The notes beneath the pieces are model-generated. The model did not search any database. It was not told where the DNA came from and saw only the letters and a list, made by a program, of their open reading frames with translations. Below are positions 14,573-26,118 of a DNA stretch of 64,000 nucleotides, piece by piece. The stretch covers positions 1 to 64,000 of the forward strand of contig CANNHN010000003.1 in the NCBI GenBank assembly GCA_947504725.1. The letters run 5' to 3'. The position numbers and the translations under genes were made by a program. The DNA is from Bacteroidota bacterium. Lineage in GTDB: Bacteria > Bacteroidota > Bacteroidia > 2-12-FULL-35-15. Positions within the stretch are counted from its first letter, which is position 1, and each line of letters begins with the position of its first letter.

Positions 14573-16618
14573 ATGAAAAAAATTGCTACACTTACCTTGG
14601 GATGTTTGCTAGGCTTAACAGCTGTTCAAGCACAAACATTCTCTGATGATTTTGAAAGTTATACATTAACAACACCGCTTTTAGGGATGCAGTCTCCTGA
14701 TTGGAGAACTTGGACATCTACTACAGGTGGTGGAGCAGAAGATGTTGCGGTAGTTTCTACTGATAATCATACGGTTGCCGGATCAAAATCTATTTATTTT
14801 TCTTCTACGAGTGCAACTGGTGGACCAGATGATGTGATTTTACCTTTCACTACAGGTGCTCCTTTAAATACTGGTCAGTTTTCTTGGAAATCTTGGTTTA
14901 AAATACCAACTGCAAAAACGGCTTATTTCAATTTTCAAGGAACTTCTACAATGGGTGGAATGTACGTATTGGACTGTTGGATGAATGCTGGTGGTGCGAT
15001 ACAAGTTCAAAATACAGGTACTATTGTATCTACTGGTACTTTTCCTGTAGGCGCATGGTTTGAGATGGAAATCAAAGCAAATTTTAATGCAAATGCTTGG
15101 GAATTATTAATCAATGGTGTTTCTCAAGGAACATGGTCAAATGCAAACAATCAAGTTTGGGGTATCGATTATTACCCTGCTGATGCTGCTGCAAGTTTTT
15201 GGGTAGATGATGTTTCTTACAATGTTACTCCTTATACGTTACCTGCATTAAATGCTGCTGGTAACTTATTAAATATTTCTATGGGATTGGCTAGTGCAAC
15301 AAGATTTCCTGCTGTTACTGTCAGAAATTTAGGAACAAGCGTTATTAATTCATTTGATATTTCTATCACTCAAAACGGTGGTGCTCCAGTTGTTAAAAAC
15401 GTAACAGGTTTAACCTTAGCTTCATTAGCGAATACTATTCAAACATATACTGTACCTTTTACACTTGTTGCTGGTTCAAATACATTTGTTGCTACAATTA
15501 GTAACGTAAATGGTGCAGGTGCTGATGGTGACCCTTCAGACGATGTGCTTACAACTGTTTTGAATCCTGTAGTAACTCCAGCTGCTGGTAAAATGGTAGT
15601 TGCTGAAGAAGGAACTGGAACATGGTGTCAGTGGTGCCCTAGAGGTGCTGTTTTTATGGATATAATGGATACAAAATATGCAGGTTTCATTGCTCCAATC
15701 GCAGTTCACAATGGTGACCCAATGACAGTTACTGCTTATGATGCAGCTATCGGTGCATTAATTGGAGGTTACCCAAGTGCTTTGGTTGATCGTTTACCTG
15801 AAATTGACCCAAGTGGACTGGAAACAGATTTCTTAACTCGTATTGTAGTTGCTCCGAAAGCTTTTGTTATGAACGGTGCAACGTATAATTCTACAACTCG
15901 TGTATTAAATGTTTCTGTTACGTATACAAATCAAGCGTTATTAACAGGAAATTATAAAGCACTTTGTGTTATCACAGAAAATGATGTAACTGGAACTACT
16001 GGATATGCTCAATCAAATGCATATGCTGGTGGTGGTGCTGGACCAATGGGTGGTTTCGAATTACTAGCGAATCCTGTTCCTGCTTCTCAAATGCAATATG
16101 ATTTCGTTGCACGTATGATTAGCCCTAGTTTTGCTGGTACTCCAAATGCTCAAGGAACGACTACTGCTATTGGTGGTGTATTTACTTGGACTTACTCATT
16201 TACGTTACCTGCTGGTTATGATGATACACAAGTTCACATTGTGGGTATGTTGGTTGATCCAACAGGTAAAATTGAAAATGCTGATTACACAACTATCCCT
16301 GAAGCAGTAGCTAACGGATATGTTACAGGTTCTGGAGTTGGAATAAATGATATCGCTTCTGCACCGGATGCACAAGTGAGTGTTTATCCTAATCCTACTG
16401 CTAATACTTCTACGATCTCTTTAAATCTTGCAAAAGCATCTACTGTTTCTGTAGCGATTTATGCAGTGGATGGTTCATTAGTAGGAAGCAAATCGTATGG
16501 TGAATTAAACGGTGCAATGTTATTGCCTGTTGATTTAACAATCTATAATGCTGGTTTATATTTTGTAAACGTTACAATCGATGGAAATACTTCGGTATTG
16601 AAATTGGTAAAACAATAA
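14573..16618 (+). CDS. T9SS cargo with an Omp28-like (thioredoxin-like) domain
   Basis: 681 residues. Signal peptide 1-20 (ending QAQ); about 21-220 a lectin-like jelly roll (FSDDFESYTL at the start, ASFWVDDVSYNV at the end); about 225-330 an Ig-like or CARDB module; about 340-590 an Omp28-related region with TGTWCQWCPRGAVFMD, whose CQWC resembles a thioredoxin CxxC, and YPSALVDR; residues ~600-681 a type A sorting domain (VSVYPNPTANTSTISL, GLYFVNVTIDG). The Omp28 domain is frequent in exported Bacteroidota proteins; its redox activity is not proven. It is transcribed alone and followed by a strong terminator. Confidence 0.85.
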   Translation: MKKIATLTLGCLLGLTAVQAQTFSDDFESYTLTTPLLGMQSPDWRTWTSTTGGGAEDVAVVSTDNHTVAGSKSIYFSSTSATGGPDDVILPFTTGAPLNTGQFSWKSWFKIPTAKTAYFNFQGTSTMGGMYVLDCWMNAGGAIQVQNTGTIVSTGTFPVGAWFEMEIKANFNANAWELLINGVSQGTWSNANNQVWGIDYYPADAAASFWVDDVSYNVTPYTLPALNAAGNLLNISMGLASATRFPAVTVRNLGTSVINSFDISITQNGGAPVVKNVTGLTLASLANTIQTYTVPFTLVAGSNTFVATISNVNGAGADGDPSDDVLTTVLNPVVTPAAGKMVVAEEGTGTWCQWCPRGAVFMDIMDTKYAGFIAPIAVHNGDPMTVTAYDAAIGALIGGYPSALVDRLPEIDPSGLETDFLTRIVVAPKAFVMNGATYNSTTRVLNVSVTYTNQALLTGNYKALCVITENDVTGTTGYAQSNAYAGGGAGPMGGFELLANPVPASQMQYDFVARMISPSFAGTPNAQGTTTAIGGVFTWTYSFTLPAGYDDTQVHIVGMLVDPTGKIENADYTTIPEAVANGYVTGSGVGINDIASAPDAQVSVYPNPTANTSTISLNLAKASTVSVAIYAVDGSLVGSKSYGELNGAMLLPVDLTIYNAGLYFVNVTIDGNTSVLKLVKQ

Positions 16619-18920: not shown

Positions 18921-18955
18921 AAAAAGCCCCGAGTGAAATCACTCGGGGCTTTTTA
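18921..18955. terminator. Intrinsic terminator after the FG-GAP cargo gene
   Basis: AAAAAGCCCCGAGTG, loop, then CACTCGGGGCTTTTTA: a strong stem, placed just past the stop of the 957-residue cargo gene on the minus strand. Confidence 0.85.
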
Positions 18956-18971
18956 AATTATTCTAAAACTC

Positions 18972-21845
18972 TTATTTAGTCAATACTAATTTCTGAACTA
19001 ATTTTTGAGTGTCATTTTTAATAGTGATGATGTAAGAACCAGCATTTAAGTCAGCCACATTTACATTTACAACTTGTCCTTGAACAGGATTGTCAATAGA
19101 ATGTGTTTTAACTAATCTTCCTGCTACATCAGTTATTTCAACAACTGTTAATGAATTCATGTTGTATCCGAATTCTACATTTACAAATGTGCTTGCAGGG
19201 TTTGGATAAATTGCTACACCTGTATTTTCTGCACCAGCAGTAATTCCTGTTGCAGTTGTTACTGTAGCAGTAACTGGAACTCTAGGTGAGCTAATACAAT
19301 TTGTGTTAGGTGTTTGAATTTTCCAATCGTAGTAGTAGTAATATGCACTGCTACTTGTTGCAGATCCTGTCCAACCATTTGTTATTGTAACTAATCCTGC
19401 TGTTGTATAAGGATAAGAAACGCCAGCCGTATTTCTTCTTAATGAAGGAGTAGTTGCTTGCGTTAAACGGTATCCAACACCAGGAGTTAATGGGAAATTT
19501 AATGTTACAACAGAAGAGTCAATAGGAAGACTTGCAGTTGTAAAAGTGTTAAGAATAGTCCCAACATTGTTTCTTAATTGGATAGTGCGAGGTCCAGCAG
19601 TTGTTGCATATACCTTCACCGAAACAAGAGTAGCTGGAGCTAATACATCAAAATCAAGTCCACCAACAACAGTACTAGTTCCAGAACCAGAACCATTTGC
19701 TCTTCCGCCATTGTTCAATGATCCAAAATATGTAGTTGTTTCATCAACATAATATGTAGTCGTTGTACTAATTGTCGGAGTTGTATAAGCAGTTCCAGTT
19801 GTTAGAGCAGAGCCTCCAGTTATAGCTGAATACCAATTTAATGTTCCACCAGAACCAGCAGCAGATAAGTTAAATGTTGCAGGGCCAGGACCAGTAGCGC
19901 CAGTTCCTGTTGGACTAGGTGCAGCTAATACAGAAACTACAGTTGGAGCAGCTGTCCAATTTTGACATAATCCTGTTGTAGTTAATGAATAGGTTCCTGA
20001 AAGTGAAGGTGTAATAGATTGAGTTGATGCTGTAAATCCTGAAGGACCTGTCCAAGCATAAGCAGATGCTGTTGAGCTTGTTAAAGTAAATGTTCCAGCA
20101 CATGTATTCGTTCCAGAAGTACTTACAGATGGTGTTTGAACTGGGTTTAATTCAGTAGTTACGTTTGGAGATACGTTAGTGCAACCTGCTGCATTTGTAA
20201 CCTTAACATTGTAGTTTCCTGTTGTGCTAACTACAATAGAAGGAGTAGTAGCTCCATTTGACCATAAGTAAGAAGTATATCCAGCTGGTGCAGTTAATGT
20301 AACTGAACCTGCAGTACAAAATGCATAAGGACCAGGGATTACGTTTCCTGTAATTGAGCAACCGCTTTCCACAACAGTTACGAATTGATCAGCATTTAAA
20401 GTACCAAAAGTAGTTGTTCCACCTGCTGGCCAACTTACTACTGCAGATGTAATTGTAGTAGAAGAACCTAAACCAAAATGCAATTGCATTGAGTTCGCTG
20501 TTCCATAAGTTTCACCTGCTCTAACTTCACGAATTTGTGTTCCAAATGAACCAGTGATTGTAACACGTGCGCCAATTGCATCATGATTACTTGCTGTTCC
20601 CGTTAAGTTGAAAGTAATAAAGTGATTTCCATTTTTGTTATTTAAATACAATACATCATCATCAACTGTTGATGGTGAATTGTAAATGTTACCATAAGAA
20701 GTTTGTAAATCAATAAAACCATCGTGATTTAAATCACCAGTTGCAAAGGATAATAAACCACCTAAGTTAGGAAGTACACCTGTAACTGGAGTGAAAGTCA
20801 TGTCTCCGTTATTGTGCCACATATACCATTGTGAACCAGAAATCATAATGTCCAAATATCCATCATTGTCAAAATCTTCAACAACTGATTCGATTGGGTC
20901 AATAGACGTGTTCCATCCTGTTGTTGCAGTAATGTCTGTAAACATTCCAGATCCATTATTTTCGAAAATTTGTCCATTCTCACCATGGTTCGTCATAACA
21001 AGATCAAAATCTCCATCATTATCTAAGTCACCAAAACTTGAAGTCCAAGATTGTTTGAAGTCTGTAATTTCAATTCCGTAAGTAGCAGATTGTTCTGAAT
21101 AAACGTTACTTCCATTGTTTACAAATAAACGATCTCTTCTTCTTTGATCTGTAGAGCTAGTTGCTGATTGACGGCAATGAGCAATGTATAAATCCAAATC
21201 GCCATCGTTATCAAAATCTAACCAAACACTACCATAGTTTCCTGAATCATAAGGGTCACCGCTGTAGAACATTCCTGGATTAATTTCTGTATCAATTAAC
21301 GATGTCGTTAATGTCATCGTTCCAGCATTGTTCTTGTAAATTTTCATGTAATCATTATCATCACAAACTGCTAAGTCTACCCAGCCATCATTATCAATAT
21401 CACCAAAAGTGACATTCTGAACGAAGTAAGAACCAGCTAATGTAGTTTGTGTTTTAGTGATTGTACTTCCAGACCAGAAAAGTTTAACTAAATACATTGT
21501 TCCGTTAACTCCTGTAGCAACATCTTTCCAACCATTGTGATCCACATCTGCTAAAGCCATTCCCCAAACGTTTGTACCACCTGTGATAGTTCCTAAATCG
21601 TAATTGGTATAGGTTCCGTTTGCGTTTTGTAAATCAATAACCAATACATCTGATTGATCCATTTTAACGATATCATCAAGACCATCGTTATTAATATCTA
21701 CAACTGAAATAGCGCAACCGCTACGAGTTAAATTTGAAATTAAGCTGTTTGAGTTAGTAAATGCAAACTGTGCGTTGGTGTTAATTGCACCAAGTAAGCA
21801 AAGGGAAGCAAGAACTAACGACTTGTGGAAAGTAGTTTTTGTCAT
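18972..21845 (-). CDS. Large T9SS cargo with FG-GAP/VCBS repeats and an ASPIC/UnbV domain
   Basis: 957 residues. Signal peptide 1-25 (TNAQ end). About 30-400: a seven-bladed integrin-like propeller made of FG-GAP/VCBS repeats, each with a calcium-binding DxNxDGxxD loop (DINNDGLDD, DIDNDGWVD, DFDNDGDLD, DLDNDGDFD, DFDNDGYLD, DLNHDGFID). About 418-495: ASPIC/UnbV domain (REVRAGETYGTANSMQLHFG). About 500-640: glycine/threonine-rich Ig-like segments; then a beta domain, and a type A sorting domain (IYPNPASTFVNVEF to LVQKLVLTK). It is likely a surface protein binding calcium and polysaccharide or protein partners. It is a single-gene unit. Confidence 0.88.
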   Translation of the reverse strand: MTKTTFHKSLVLASLCLLGAINTNAQFAFTNSNSLISNLTRSGCAISVVDINNDGLDDIVKMDQSDVLVIDLQNANGTYTNYDLGTITGGTNVWGMALADVDHNGWKDVATGVNGTMYLVKLFWSGSTITKTQTTLAGSYFVQNVTFGDIDNDGWVDLAVCDDNDYMKIYKNNAGTMTLTTSLIDTEINPGMFYSGDPYDSGNYGSVWLDFDNDGDLDLYIAHCRQSATSSTDQRRRDRLFVNNGSNVYSEQSATYGIEITDFKQSWTSSFGDLDNDGDFDLVMTNHGENGQIFENNGSGMFTDITATTGWNTSIDPIESVVEDFDNDGYLDIMISGSQWYMWHNNGDMTFTPVTGVLPNLGGLLSFATGDLNHDGFIDLQTSYGNIYNSPSTVDDDVLYLNNKNGNHFITFNLTGTASNHDAIGARVTITGSFGTQIREVRAGETYGTANSMQLHFGLGSSTTITSAVVSWPAGGTTTFGTLNADQFVTVVESGCSITGNVIPGPYAFCTAGSVTLTAPAGYTSYLWSNGATTPSIVVSTTGNYNVKVTNAAGCTNVSPNVTTELNPVQTPSVSTSGTNTCAGTFTLTSSTASAYAWTGPSGFTASTQSITPSLSGTYSLTTTGLCQNWTAAPTVVSVLAAPSPTGTGATGPGPATFNLSAAGSGGTLNWYSAITGGSALTTGTAYTTPTISTTTTYYVDETTTYFGSLNNGGRANGSGSGTSTVVGGLDFDVLAPATLVSVKVYATTAGPRTIQLRNNVGTILNTFTTASLPIDSSVVTLNFPLTPGVGYRLTQATTPSLRRNTAGVSYPYTTAGLVTITNGWTGSATSSSAYYYYYDWKIQTPNTNCISSPRVPVTATVTTATGITAGAENTGVAIYPNPASTFVNVEFGYNMNSLTVVEITDVAGRLVKTHSIDNPVQGQVVNVNVADLNAGSYIITIKNDTQKLVQKLVLTK

Positions 21846-21906: not shown

Positions 21907-23859
21907 TTATGATTTTACAACTTTTTTATAGACTATTTTCTTGCCCGTTGTAATTCTTAAGTGATATATGCCCGATGATTGAGGCAGATAAAGGTTTATG
22001 GTAGATTGGAAGCCTAAATTTTGATGCTGTGCTATAAGTTTGCCTTCTGCATTGAAAATATCCACCGATTTAATCAAATCGCCATATTCAGATGAAACAT
22101 AAATTTTCCCATCCAATGAAATAGTTGGCCATGCATTTACCTCTGGTTTCAAATAAGTGTTTACACTTAATAATGGAATAAGAACGTTGTTTATGCTGTC
22201 CTGTGCAACCAAAATTGGTGATTGGTCGGCACTGTTATACATGGTTTCGAATGCGTTTATTTCGGGTGTTGAATATGTAAACATGTTTTCCACCCATTTT
22301 GGTGGAACAGATTGGTAATATACTTTTGATTTGATATTGATATTTCCAACGGCTCCTGCTAAAGGAACAGCAAAATGTACCCAGTCAACACCGCTTCCTT
22401 CAACGGATGCTACTTTATTAAAATCGGCATCTGCAATTGCATCATTTGATACTTTAACTGTGTCATAAACAGAAGAAGCAGAGGTGAAGCCCAATGGTGG
22501 AATTCTATTATCTTTTAATAATATGGCAGCTCGTTCTAGTACAGATGTAAAATTGCCTAGAACATCTCCAGGAACCAATTCATAAATCTGAGGAACATGA
22601 GATTGATTGATCGCATCGTGATGTATTTCGAAGTTTGAATTTTCGCCAACTACACGATATTGATTATTAAAAATACCAGTTTGAAAAATGGTATCTCCTG
22701 TTCCATCAATCACTACAAATTGTAAAACCGCTCTGCGAGACGGGTAACCTGAAGGAAATTTATGGCCAGCTTTATTTTTCAGCATTACTCTGAAATACGC
22801 AGTATCAGTTGTTATAGACACTTGTTGTAAATCAAAATCGAGTGTTTTTTGCTGCAACATTGCAGTAGTTGCTAAAATCGTAGAGTCAAAACTTTTATCT
22901 GGAACATAGATGTCTAAAGCCGTTTTGTTCGCTTTGATTAAGTTAAGCATAAAAACATTGGCCCCTGCAAACGTATGTTGGTTAAAAGGTGTACGTGGCG
23001 TTAAACCTGTAAATCCATTTGCAATAATAATAGATTCGTTAACAGGAGGCATATGACATGTTTGGCACTTAACATTATTGGAAGGATAATCCGAGTTTAC
23101 ATATTCGTGAGCGGTGGCTTGTTCAACAAAATGTCCTCCTGTGTATGCTCCAGCTAAATCAACGCTTTCGGTAATAAGTGTGTGACAAGATGAACAAACT
23201 CTTGATTCATCCATGTGTGGACTGTAAACAGGTGTGAGTCCTTCATATAATTGCATTGGCGCAACAAAGGGAGCAGTAAATGGTCCGTAAACACTTAAAA
23301 TAGTATCATACGGAATGTCTCCTGAGAAGGTAAATCCTACAGTCGGTTTTATAGTATGACAACCCATACAGGACACACCATCTTGTCCTAAAGTATCAGA
23401 AGCTAAATCGGTAAGTGAATAAAAAGGATCTCCATGAAACTTTGAAGTGAAAGCACCCATTGGTGCATGGCAATCTAAACATTTGTTTTGAAGCGGTCCG
23501 GCATGTGCAGGATTAATAGTTATTTCATGAGTTACTTTTGCTTTCCAGAAAGGATCTTTTGCTGATAAAGCCATCATTGAACTTTCCCATCTATCAACTA
23601 AATTCACATCTTCTCCGGCTTCGTTAATGTTTGCAACAGTTGCTGAATCGTAACCGTGGCATCCTCTACAACTAGATGAAGGAAGGAAGTATTCTCCCGG
23701 TGCAATAGGCGCTCTTGTATGAATACCTTTATAGGCATCAAGCTGTGATTGCGTGTGAAACTTTTTTGCTGGGCTATTGGACGCAGCAGAATTCATAAAC
23801 TTGAATCCAATTGCAAACCCTACAATTATAAAAAGAATAGTAATTTTTTTGATACTCAT
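21907..23859 (-). CDS. Five-haem c-type cytochrome with a T9SS-type C-terminal domain
   Basis: 650 residues. Residues 4-22 are a signal or membrane anchor. Five haem-binding CxxCH motifs are visible: CRGCH (64-68), CLDCH (127-131), CMGCH (164-168), CSSCH (222-226) and CQTCH (265-269), as in the cytochrome c554 / NrfA-like multihaem group. A beta-rich domain follows, with AGHKFPSGYPSRRA, a motif I associate with this group. The last ~75 residues (SVDIFNAEGKLIAQHQN to SGIYHLRITTGKKIVYKKVVKS) resemble a type A T9SS sorting domain, so the haem protein may be carried to the cell surface. Substrate and partner are unknown. Confidence 0.8.
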   Translation of the reverse strand: MSIKKITILFIIVGFAIGFKFMNSAASNSPAKKFHTQSQLDAYKGIHTRAPIAPGEYFLPSSSCRGCHGYDSATVANINEAGEDVNLVDRWESSMMALSAKDPFWKAKVTHEITINPAHAGPLQNKCLDCHAPMGAFTSKFHGDPFYSLTDLASDTLGQDGVSCMGCHTIKPTVGFTFSGDIPYDTILSVYGPFTAPFVAPMQLYEGLTPVYSPHMDESRVCSSCHTLITESVDLAGAYTGGHFVEQATAHEYVNSDYPSNNVKCQTCHMPPVNESIIIANGFTGLTPRTPFNQHTFAGANVFMLNLIKANKTALDIYVPDKSFDSTILATTAMLQQKTLDFDLQQVSITTDTAYFRVMLKNKAGHKFPSGYPSRRAVLQFVVIDGTGDTIFQTGIFNNQYRVVGENSNFEIHHDAINQSHVPQIYELVPGDVLGNFTSVLERAAILLKDNRIPPLGFTSASSVYDTVKVSNDAIADADFNKVASVEGSGVDWVHFAVPLAGAVGNINIKSKVYYQSVPPKWVENMFTYSTPEINAFETMYNSADQSPILVAQDSINNVLIPLLSVNTYLKPEVNAWPTISLDGKIYVSSEYGDLIKSVDIFNAEGKLIAQHQNLGFQSTINLYLPQSSGIYHLRITTGKKIVYKKVVKS

Positions 23860-23952
23860 AATTTGTGAATGATAAACAAATATATAGAATAAAGGTTGTA
23901 TTAAAAAGTGAAAATCGCCCAGTGGAAGGATTATTGAGATAAATCATAAAAT

Positions 23953-23987
23953 AAAAACTCCCGAATGGTTATTTTCGGGAGCTTTTA
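23953..23987 (-). terminator. Intrinsic terminator after dsbD
   Basis: CTCCCGAA, loop, TTCGGGAG, flanked by A-run and T-run; read on the minus strand it ends in a U-rich tract. It separates dsbD from the cytochrome gene. Confidence 0.8.
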
Positions 23988-23988
23988 T

Positions 23989-26118
23989 TTATTTGGTAGT
24001 GCGTATCTTAAATTCATTGGTGCCTTCGTCCATCCAATTGACGTATTCAGGTATTCCTGATTTATAACCTCTCGGATTGTTTAGCAATTGTTCGTTGTGG
24101 TCGATTAAAACATACAAAGGTTGTGTGCTTTGTTTATATAATGTTTCTTCCATGTATTTGAATTTATCACCGATGGTAGTAATTTCTCTTTCTTGTCCGA
24201 ACCAAAACACTTTCATATAGTCTTTTGGGTCTAATTCTGTTTTGTCGTCTACATATAATGACACAAGAACAACATCGTTGTTGAGTCTTTTTGTCACTTC
24301 AGTATCCGGCCAAATAAAATCTTCTGTTTTTCTACAGTTAGCACATTGGAATCCGGTAAAGTCAATCATCAAAGGTTTCCCAACTTTTTTTGCATATGCC
24401 AATGCATTTTTATAATCGTTTTTGAAATGCACAATTCCATTTTTACTAGTATGAATATAAGGTGCAAATTCAGGGTCAATGCTAGATGAATGGCTATTGC
24501 CTGAAACGCTTGAGCCACCAAATCCATTTGGCGATTCAGAATTTTCATAAGCAGGTAATACTCCGCTAAATAATTTTAATGGAGCGCCCCACAATCCTGG
24601 AATCAAATAAATTGTTACAAAAAACGAAAGTATAATAAAGAATAATCTGGTTACAGAAATGTGTTTTGTTTCACTGTCATGTGAGGTTTTAAATCCACCT
24701 AATAAATAAATGGTCATTAATCCAAAAACGACAACCCACAAGGAAATAAATACTTCACGTGTTAATATTCCCCAGTTGTAAGCAACATCAACATTGGAAG
24801 CGAATTTTAATGCCAATGCTAATTCTAAAAATCCTAAAACAACTTTAACTGTGTTAAGCCATCCGCCACTTTTTGGCATGGAGTTAAGCATAGAAGGGAA
24901 GAAGGCAAATAATCCAAAAGGTAAAGCTAAGCCTGCAGAAAAACCAAACATTGCCCAAAAGGCACCAGATGTATTTCCTGAAGTAGAAGCAGCTACTAGA
25001 GCATTTCCTACCATTGGGCCTGTACAAGAGAAGGAAACTACAACTAAGGCCAACGCCATAAAAAAGATACCCGCAAAACCGCCTCTGTCTCCTTGCGCAT
25101 CAATTTTGTTTACAAATGCTGAAGGCAGAACAATTTCAAAAGCACCAAGAAATGAGGCTGCAAATACAAGTAATAAAATAAATATCACGAAGTTAAATCC
25201 GGCACTTGTTGCAAATGTATTTAATGCACCACCTCCCCAGATTGCTGAAATCCCTAATCCTAAAGTAACAAAAATCACAATGATGGACAATGCGTACAAT
25301 ACAGCATTTAGTTTCCCTTTCGCTTTTGTTTTGCTTCTCTTTAAAAAGAAACTCACGTTCATAGGAATCAATGGAAAAACACAAGGAGTAAATAAGGCTG
25401 CAAATCCCCACAAGAAGCCTGTTAATAAAATTGACCACCAAGGTTTTCCTTCTAGTGATGTGTCATCTACTTCCGTTTTTAAGGATGTTGGGGTAGTGTT
25501 TGTTGATGCAGGAGCTTCTATTTTGGTTTCTTTTACTTCACTTGTCGATGTATTTTTTAACGTATAAGCTTTAGCAACAGCTTCTGAATCTATAATTAAA
25601 TTTGATCCAGTTTCAATAGGAATAAGCTTCACTCCACCTTTTTCACAATCTGCAGTTCCTTTGAATTTAAATTCGAAAGGTGTTGCAGGCGGGAAAATAC
25701 ATTTTTCTTCGGTACACGCTTGGTATTCGTATTTACCTTTTACAACAATATCCTTATTGGCTTTTAATCTTATTTTTTGTTTGAAAGTTACGGTCTTTTC
25801 AAAATATAGGACTTCCATTTCAAAAACTTTATCCATTGCTTTTATAGGCGTTCCTTCTGTTGGTTTGCCTATTGTTTCGTAATCAGCACTTTTATCTACA
25901 AAAATATTTGCAGGCATTGGGCCATCATTTCCAATCTGATTAAGAGAGTATACATGCCAATGTTCTTCCATAGTGCCAGTGAAAGCGATTTCGTATTCAC
26001 AATCACTTATTTTTTTGCTGGATGTTTTCCATTTAACGGGGTCTACAACTTGCGCTGTTGCTAAGTTTGCAATAAAAATTCCTGCAAGCAGAATAAAAAA
26101 TTTAAAAATATTTTTCAT
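23989..26118 (-). CDS. dsbD: Protein-disulfide reductase DsbD (CcdA-like membrane core plus thioredoxin domain)
   Basis: Carries electrons from cytoplasmic thioredoxin across the inner membrane to periplasmic thiols, for disulfide correction and cytochrome c maturation. 709 residues: signal peptide 1-22, N-terminal immunoglobulin-like alpha domain (about 25-170, with CTEEKCIFPP), a charged linker, the eight-helix beta domain (about 225-505) with its two conserved cysteines in FTPCVFPLIP and SFSCTGPMVG, then a C-terminal thioredoxin-like domain with FTGFQCANCRKTE (CxxC near residue 592). The order matches full-length DsbD; length is slightly above the E. coli protein. It is transcribed alone, upstream of the five-haem cytochrome. 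Confidence 0.93.
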   Translation of the reverse strand: MKNIFKFFILLAGIFIANLATAQVVDPVKWKTSSKKISDCEYEIAFTGTMEEHWHVYSLNQIGNDGPMPANIFVDKSADYETIGKPTEGTPIKAMDKVFEMEVLYFEKTVTFKQKIRLKANKDIVVKGKYEYQACTEEKCIFPPATPFEFKFKGTADCEKGGVKLIPIETGSNLIIDSEAVAKAYTLKNTSTSEVKETKIEAPASTNTTPTSLKTEVDDTSLEGKPWWSILLTGFLWGFAALFTPCVFPLIPMNVSFFLKRSKTKAKGKLNAVLYALSIIVIFVTLGLGISAIWGGGALNTFATSAGFNFVIFILLLVFAASFLGAFEIVLPSAFVNKIDAQGDRGGFAGIFFMALALVVVSFSCTGPMVGNALVAASTSGNTSGAFWAMFGFSAGLALPFGLFAFFPSMLNSMPKSGGWLNTVKVVLGFLELALALKFASNVDVAYNWGILTREVFISLWVVVFGLMTIYLLGGFKTSHDSETKHISVTRLFFIILSFFVTIYLIPGLWGAPLKLFSGVLPAYENSESPNGFGGSSVSGNSHSSSIDPEFAPYIHTSKNGIVHFKNDYKNALAYAKKVGKPLMIDFTGFQCANCRKTEDFIWPDTEVTKRLNNDVVLVSLYVDDKTELDPKDYMKVFWFGQEREITTIGDKFKYMEETLYKQSTQPLYVLIDHNEQLLNNPRGYKSGIPEYVNWMDEGTNEFKIRTTK

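Follow-up and report, generated by a model that had tools for sequence, protein, structure and literature searches.

A penta-haem c552-fold cytochrome with a type A sorting domain, proposed as cargo of the type IX secretion system in Bacteroidota

Introduction

Cytochromes on the outer surface of Gram-negative bacteria are generally treated either as lipoproteins served by porin conduits or as filaments. Here we analyze a gene predicted to encode a five-haem cytochrome that ends in a sorting domain of the type IX secretion system (T9SS), located on the minus strand at positions 21907-23859 of a 64,000-nucleotide stretch from a Bacteroidota bacterium (contig CANNHN010000003.1 of assembly GCA_947504725.1; hereafter the window) and directly followed by a gene for a propeller protein resembling CRTAC1. 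Based on its motifs, tail, modelled fold and gene neighbourhood, we propose that cytochromes with the penta-haem c552 fold are carried outside the cell via the T9SS in many Bacteroidota.

One described relative is a reportedly soluble penta-haem cytochrome from Thermochromatium tepidum, c552 (5ze8), whose second part we take to be immunoglobulin (Ig)-like. Others are ExtKL, MccSep and the 'PHC' cytochromes of Geobacter and cable bacteria (NF040886, 9wt8). Passages of one study place ExtKL, a five-haem protein, in both the outer and the cytoplasmic membranes and describe it as more abundant with Fe(III) (PMC5877670). In the relevant sections of a paper on cable bacteria, ExtKL is grouped with the 'PHC' cytochromes, a likeness to c552 is noted and the ExtKL family is linked to extracellular transfer; the same sections cite a proposed kinship of c552 to the archaeal nanowire protein AvECN, align four of the five haems in a relative from cable bacteria with those of AvECN, and group small and large penta-haem cytochromes as potentially catalytic (PMC11976967).

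On the secretion side, characterized T9SS cargo such as RemA, RemZ, NucA and RgpB shares a C-terminal seven-strand sorting domain with the window protein but, unlike it, consists of non-cytochromes. HBP35 of Porphyromonas gingivalis carries a type A-like domain and is a haem-binding cargo by name; to our knowledge it is not a CxxCH cytochrome, and we know of no CxxCH cytochrome among the characterized cargo. Among the matches listed in a search of the open-access literature, no multihaem or c-type T9SS cytochrome was found. As far as the consulted sections of three papers go, type A domains are seven-strand Ig-like sandwiches recognized by PorV (PMC12618676), possess a functional glycine at the opening of strand 4 as well as a strand-7 lysine (PMC11285876), and have an almost invariant lysine (PMC10994853).

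Results

The open reading frame (ORF) at 21907-23859 on the minus strand (P0001) encodes a product of 650 amino acids and is backed by full-length homologues, while the plus-strand frame across the same positions contains many stops. Residues 1-27 (23779-23859) resemble a signal peptide by inspection, with Lys at the start, a hydrophobic stretch and small residues, and residues 3-24 are modelled as a helix. The five-haem domain spans residues ~57-275 (23035-23691; limits set by eye from alignment and structure match), and a motif scan of the protein sequence located within it CRGCH (C64-H68, 23656-23670), CLDCH (C127-H131, 23467-23481), CMGCH (C164-H168, 23356-23370), CSSCH (C222-H226, 23182-23196) and CQTCH (C265-H269, 23053-23067). 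The original prediction had placed five CxxCH motifs within the first 270 residues, and indeed the last haem His is residue 269. All ten Cys of the protein belong to these motifs, which begin at residues 64, 127, 164, 222 and 265; in 20,000 residue shuffles, 19,913 lacked CxxCH, 87 had one and none had more. The motif Cys and His are invariant across a 28-row alignment (the window protein plus 27 of 43 homologue loci), and the five haem His are kept in 47/47 rows of a wider one. The protein is thus assigned to the multihaem c-type cytochromes by several conserved CxxCH motifs behind a signal-like sequence, the latter recognized by inspection. Outside the motifs, H295 and H366 are conserved in all 47 rows, H413 in 43 (with gaps in the remaining four) and H215 in 36, whereas M202 occurs in 43 rows and M304 in 42. 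These extra conserved His are too few for five bis-His haems in one chain, so that some of these haems are probably served by Met or by a partner, or have an open site.

The last 79 residues (572-650; 21910-22146) make up the T9SS type A C-terminal domain. The model 'T9SS type A sorting domain' (TIGR04183, cut-off 23 bits) matches residues 596-649 with 33.7 bits in a protein scan and the tail with 38.1 bits in a genome search, the match covering positions 19/20-71 of its 72. In the template-free AlphaFold2 model of the whole cytochrome (mean predicted local distance difference test, pLDDT, 74.6; predicted template modelling score, pTM, 0.71), this segment forms seven strands. Superposed by VIA on translocon-bound cargo, it fits RemA (8gl6; Z 10.7, root-mean-square deviation [rmsd] 1.9 A over 74 residues), NucA (8glk; Z 10.6, rmsd 1.8 A) and RemZ (8gl8; Z 9.7), while the fit to RgpB (5ag8; Z 8.0) is no better than that of unrelated rows (8.3 to 7.3). 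According to the model, then, the protein ends in a seven-strand sandwich like the domains of working cargo, and the suggestion of a type A-like sorting domain at this end is borne out by both profile and fold. The putative strand-4 glycine, G606, is present in 38/38 tail-bearing rows and the putative strand-7 lysine, K646, in 29/38 (both located by eye from their position in the model); G630 is found in all 38 of these rows and Y632 in 37. Mean identity to the window protein amounts to 30.5% in the tail, 51.9% in the haem part and 47.5% in the Ig part, the tail diverging faster.

Between signal segment and tail, the core (residues 52-558) is modelled as a penta-haem c552 fold, composed of the five-haem domain and a second domain. 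It fits the T. tepidum c552 structure along a common five-haem chain with a VIA Z of 22.9 (rmsd 2.9, 349 residues, 24% identity), and Foldseek gives an E value of 4.7e-15 for the same pair. At the sequence level, the family profile retrieves the 5ze8 chain at 6.9e-09 and MccSep (9wt8) at 4.3e-05. The second part of c552 is aligned with a beta-rich domain at residues ~340-560 (22180-22842; limits by eye from the model and VIA). The 435-residue c552 chain stops where the T9SS tail of the window protein starts. Sequence alignments identified a signature, GHKFPSGYPSRR, at residues 365-376 (22732-22767), in which Tyr372 stands opposite selenocysteine 325 of MccSep; c552 has Ala at this position. 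Throughout the 47 rows the column holds Y in 37, F in 5, I in 4 and D in 1, without a single selenocysteine or Cys.

The GH-x-x-P-x-G-x-P signature is common to the window cytochrome and the ExtKL/MccSep/'PHC' group, and five haems are shared with ExtKL as counted in passages of PMC5877670; the window protein differs in the replacement of selenocysteine by Tyr372 and in the added T9SS tail. Searched with the ExtKL model NF040886, 44 of the 46 aligned members reach E<=0.01 (best 6.1e-16), and the window cytochrome scores 39 bits against the model's cut-off of 250. This sub-cut-off score and Tyr372 in place of selenocysteine place the protein within the fold and the wider family, and rule it out as an ExtKL equivalog; no ext-type gene cluster was present among the cytochrome neighbours examined. 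The OmcA/MtrC cytochromes share with the window protein the idea of a surface multihaem protein and a weak PF22113 match (31.7 bits, cut-off 30). They possess ten haems against five, and the TIGR03507 score of 12.1 bits, compared with a cut-off of 209.3, together with the haem count rules out a decahaem identity.

The gene directly downstream of the cytochrome, separated from it by 61 nucleotides and overlooked in the original prediction, encodes a protein of 957 amino acids (18972-21845, minus strand) with an FG-GAP propeller (PF13517) carrying seven DxDxDG-type loops, an ASPIC/UnbV domain (PF07593), an Ig_7 region and its own type A tail (40.3 bits). Its model (pLDDT 67.4, pTM 0.52) superposes on CRTAC1 (9etn) with a VIA Z of 31.8 (rmsd 3.1, 427 residues). 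By its FG-GAP repeats, ASPIC/UnbV domain and predicted fold, the partner is a CRTAC1-like protein, sharing propeller and ASPIC domain with CRTAC1 and adding the Ig_7 region and the T9SS tail.

We sampled the window's order as 36 genomes of one genus. A full-length cytochrome was found in 20 of them, and four more had tail-only matches; in all 20, the tail aligned up to position 649 or 650 of the 650-residue query. The propeller occurs in the same 20 genomes, with the copies of G299, G300 and G311 fragmented or truncated at a contig end; in the other 16 the best propeller match was below 150 bits and fell on an Ig region, a tail or a short part of the propeller. Cytochrome and propeller are adjacent on the same strand in 20/20 cases, 49-90 nucleotides apart including the stop codon. 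Their linkage within the genus is thus strong, although the 20 cases are not independent of one another. The pair is also seen outside the genus, in L024 and in L067 (genome G045), at about 39% cytochrome identity. In L034, a 638-amino acid protein scoring 167 bits against the propeller profile lies about 4 kb from the cytochrome and was not counted as a pair. The consulted part of one paper reports that, in some clades, FG-GAP genes of the CRTAC1 family adjoin those encoding hydrazine-synthase-like subunits (PMC12758564), so a propeller next to a haem protein is not unique to this locus.

Some further propeller and cytochrome paralogues were observed. The window genome holds a second CRTAC1-like propeller (L104, contig C1:222861-225758), 65% identical to the partner and with no CxxCH gene among its neighbours; among the matches listed, every genome with such a second copy has the cytochrome as well. 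Genome G045 contains three paralogues of the tailed cytochrome (L065, L066 and L067), with a propeller beside one of them only.

The core was examined in a wider set of proteins with a core-only tree of 47 rows (the window protein, 28 of the 43 loci and 18 rows from genome searches). Loci were omitted because they were cut (L025), had a broken frame (L034), were a long near-copy of L032 (L035), reached a contig end (L041), were short and distant (L043, L044) or were near-copies (L003, L009, L015, L019-L022, L037 and L039); L054 and L062-L064 were also omitted. Tails were assigned from C termini by eye, and for L036, L038, L040 and L042 by the absence of TIGR04183. On this basis 38 rows bear a T9SS-like tail and nine are tailless. 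Among the 46 members other than the window protein, 37 were assigned as tailed and 36 match TIGR04183 at E<=0.01, with at least two tailed rows below its 23-bit cut-off (L024 with 21.8 and L030 with 16.6 bits). The tailless proteins outside Bacteroidota, namely two gammaproteobacterial rows, one acidobacteriotal row and bacterium HR15, have no TIGR04183 match, and L038 and HR15 carry other C-terminal stretches in place of the tail; those inside Bacteroidota come from five genomes and end where the tail would start. Tailed and tailless proteins keep the same core, and the tail is therefore a separable module. Mapped on the core tree, in which the long rows L042 and L060 are unsurely placed, the tail state changed at least three times, two of these changes being forced by well-supported branches, with gain and loss indistinguishable. 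SprA exceeded its cut-off in 18/18 genomes checked, the five with tailless proteins included, so that the tail does not simply follow the T9SS and comparing the two has no power. In a survey of 296 genomes, 18 had a cytochrome match of at least 145 bits; 110 had any match, which is not a count of proteins as many were tail-only or short haem-only.

The five tailless bacteroidotal proteins (L075, L077, L078, L079 and L080, from G227, G203, G242, G286 and G215, respectively) have a homologous neighbour directly upstream and no propeller. This neighbour has 380-397 amino acids (174 called in L078), a conserved Trp-rich end and, in 4/5 cases, one CxxCH; the L079 copy, the one tested, is a cytochrome c (PF13442). 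In these genomes the shared core takes part in a conserved pairing of another kind. In L036, from Methylococcaceae, the C terminus consists of a hydrophobic segment followed by two Arg, as if a membrane anchor replaced the T9SS tail.

The window genome (3.40 Mb, 99.6% complete) encodes both translocon and sortase of the T9SS, as genome profile searches revealed one full copy of SprA (2574 bits) and one PorU over its cut-off (1344 bits). At least 150 type A tails are present, all 150 scored out of 210 candidates exceeding the TIGR04183 cut-off. The cytochrome c assembly profile Cytochrom_C_asm matched twice, in separate frames on another contig. No MtrB/PioB porin reached the cut-off of 23 bits in the genome, the two weaker matches scoring 19.6 and 14.9 bits. 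The Cytochrome_C7 profile, blind to other kinds of cytochromes, retrieved besides the window protein only two other multihaem proteins, an ActA-like protein with six CxxCH and a seven-haem TPR protein; the CxxCH pattern itself occurs at no fewer than 249 sites, compared with at least 131 in a reversed control. The ActA-like protein (L096, contig C2 near 139400; 428 amino acids) precedes an ORF whose start is twin-arginine-like; Pfam detects haem domains in the former and nothing in the latter, and the gene pair possibly represents, as we take it, alternative complex III. The TPR protein (L001, C1:325505-328612; 676 amino acids) combines seven CxxCH with a TPR half and matches Cytochrome_C554 and Cytochrome_C7. 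In the window, another protein with a type A tail is encoded on the plus strand at 14573-16618 (46.3 bits at C3:16382-16615), and its relatives in L002, L003 and L006-L009 weakly cross-match the profile of the propeller partner.

Upstream of the cytochrome, the gene for DsbD (23989-26118, minus strand) is its direct neighbour. The original prediction had noted this position correctly and tied it to cytochrome maturation; the functional link was not supported. A terminator-like hairpin of 17 pairs (5 G-C; 23949-23990, minus strand) lies between the two genes, DsbD adjoins the cytochrome in the window and, as part of a collinear neighbourhood, in L002-L009, and no DsbD relative occurs within the flanks examined of L010-L015 (about 62-63% identity). 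Local synteny only and the intervening hairpin led us to reject DsbD as a functional partner, and the propeller is a better lead. The terminator scan, which found 8 sites against 4.8 (standard deviation 2.2) in shuffles, reported no hairpin in the 61-nucleotide AT-rich gap between cytochrome and propeller, and a palindrome of 15 pairs (8 G-C; 18921-18954) after the propeller gene, listed on the plus strand only, whose near-symmetry would serve either strand, including the minus strand of these genes. A scan for sigma-70-like promoters returned 21 sites, fewer than the shuffle mean of 29.1, and is therefore uninformative. At 23884-23877, 5' of the cytochrome gene, lies TATATTTG, which we take to resemble the Bacteroidetes -7 element.

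Discussion

In our judgement, the window protein is probably a holo-cytochrome of the c552 fold that is exported by the T9SS and acts at the surface, most likely as one redox unit with the propeller. Export in the haem-loaded state is the likeliest route. The protein would leave the cytoplasm through the Sec system; in the periplasm, the cytochrome c assembly proteins would attach the five haems covalently, and the haem, Ig-like and type A sorting domains would fold. The sorting domain would then bind PorV in the SprA pore, and release to the outer surface would be followed by cleavage by PorU and surface attachment, where the cytochrome and the CRTAC1-like seven-bladed propeller, provided with a type A tail of its own, could function together.

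Several observations weigh against this reading. The profile check of the tail against T9SS models, suggested by the original prediction, gave a divided result: TIGR04183 was exceeded, and the Pfam model PF18962 was narrowly missed (24.6 against 27 bits), probably owing to a degenerate PNP motif. [YFVLG]PNP is absent from 12/12 rows of the window's clade and from 16 of the 38 tail-bearing rows in all, which together with the PF18962 result makes efficient recognition of the tail uncertain. Tailless relatives are found in 5 of the 18 SprA-bearing genomes checked, so the core can act without the T9SS there. With regard to the propeller, no more than 24 candidates were scored in each genome, completeness below 90% or contamination above 5% affects 10 of the order's 36 genomes, and a single unit inherited or lost together would produce the coincidence in 20/36 genomes, making these cases phylogenetically non-independent. 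Outside the genus, L024 and L067 are tree sisters and count as one further clade, and the other 19 of 20 stretches examined had no adjacent propeller.

The signs of tail decay could also be expected if the protein were a periplasmic cytochrome whose tail is a degenerate leftover, since PNP has been lost in the window's clade, PF18962 stays under its cut-off and the same core is kept in tailless homologues. Yet every one of the 20 full-length matches from the order aligns to residue 649 or 650, the tail keeps G606, G630 and, in most rows, the C-terminal Lys, the modelled fold is like that of working cargo, and the adjacent partner has a clear tail of 40.3 bits, all of which makes this explanation improbable. 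A surface location could also mean the outer end of a respiratory chain leading to outside acceptors. Extracellular electron transfer in this respiratory sense, one of the functions offered by the original prediction, draws on the ExtKL family: 44/46 members match NF040886 at E<=0.01, ExtKL is described in passages of PMC5877670 as membrane-located and more abundant with Fe(III), and the consulted sections of PMC11976967 link the family to extracellular transfer and the c552 fold to AvECN. The window protein itself reaches 39 of the 250 bits, however; the best MtrB/PioB match stands at 19.6 bits against 23, the Cytochrome_C7 profile, within the kinds of cytochromes that it can see, adds only the ActA-like and the seven-haem TPR proteins, and there is no visible route from the quinone pool to the surface. 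The prediction thus fared poorly on this point, and we give such a respiratory outlet little credence; the lack of MtrB/PioB over the cut-off and the few multihaem genes favour a surface electron-transfer protein or enzyme.

Two further explanations assume export and differ on what follows. The cytochrome might stack into a conducting filament like archaeal AvECN, in accordance with the proposed c552-AvECN relation and the four of five aligned haems of the cable-bacteria relative (in the sections consulted of PMC11976967), and with few conserved non-motif His (H295, H366, H413 and H215), which would leave room for the ligands of a neighbouring subunit. We regard this as very improbable, because the conserved Met202 (43/47) and Met304 (42/47) could act as ligands, and type A cargo held at the surface does not readily suggest a filament subunit. 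A surface redox enzyme that acts on a small molecule at one or more open haem sites, with the propeller shaping the site, would be compatible with T9SS export and surface pairing as preferred here, and is possible though somewhat unlikely as the specific function. It is in line with fewer than five fully conserved extra His for five haems, with the grouping of penta-haem cytochromes as potentially catalytic in PMC11976967 and with the CRTAC1-family genes beside hydrazine-synthase-like subunit genes in PMC12758564, as far as the consulted sections of both papers go; the hydrazine synthase parallel is one of gene neighbourhood only.

Returning to the preferred reading, that of a T9SS-exported, surface-acting holo-cytochrome paired with the propeller, its core and its tail each belong to known kinds, and their combination appears to be new. 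We tentatively suggest a broader picture, in which Bacteroidota would possess a porin-independent export of haem c through the T9SS and SprA, with assembly into a surface complex with a CRTAC1-like propeller and possibly further assembly like that of its nanowire-related fold cousins. If true, the conserved penta-haem core with its type A tail would add the T9SS as a route by which cytochromes reach the surface. The cytochrome would allow a direct test of whether a large protein with covalently bound haem passes SprA, with the tailless relatives at hand as a natural control, and its constant propeller neighbour within the genus provides a concrete lead to function.

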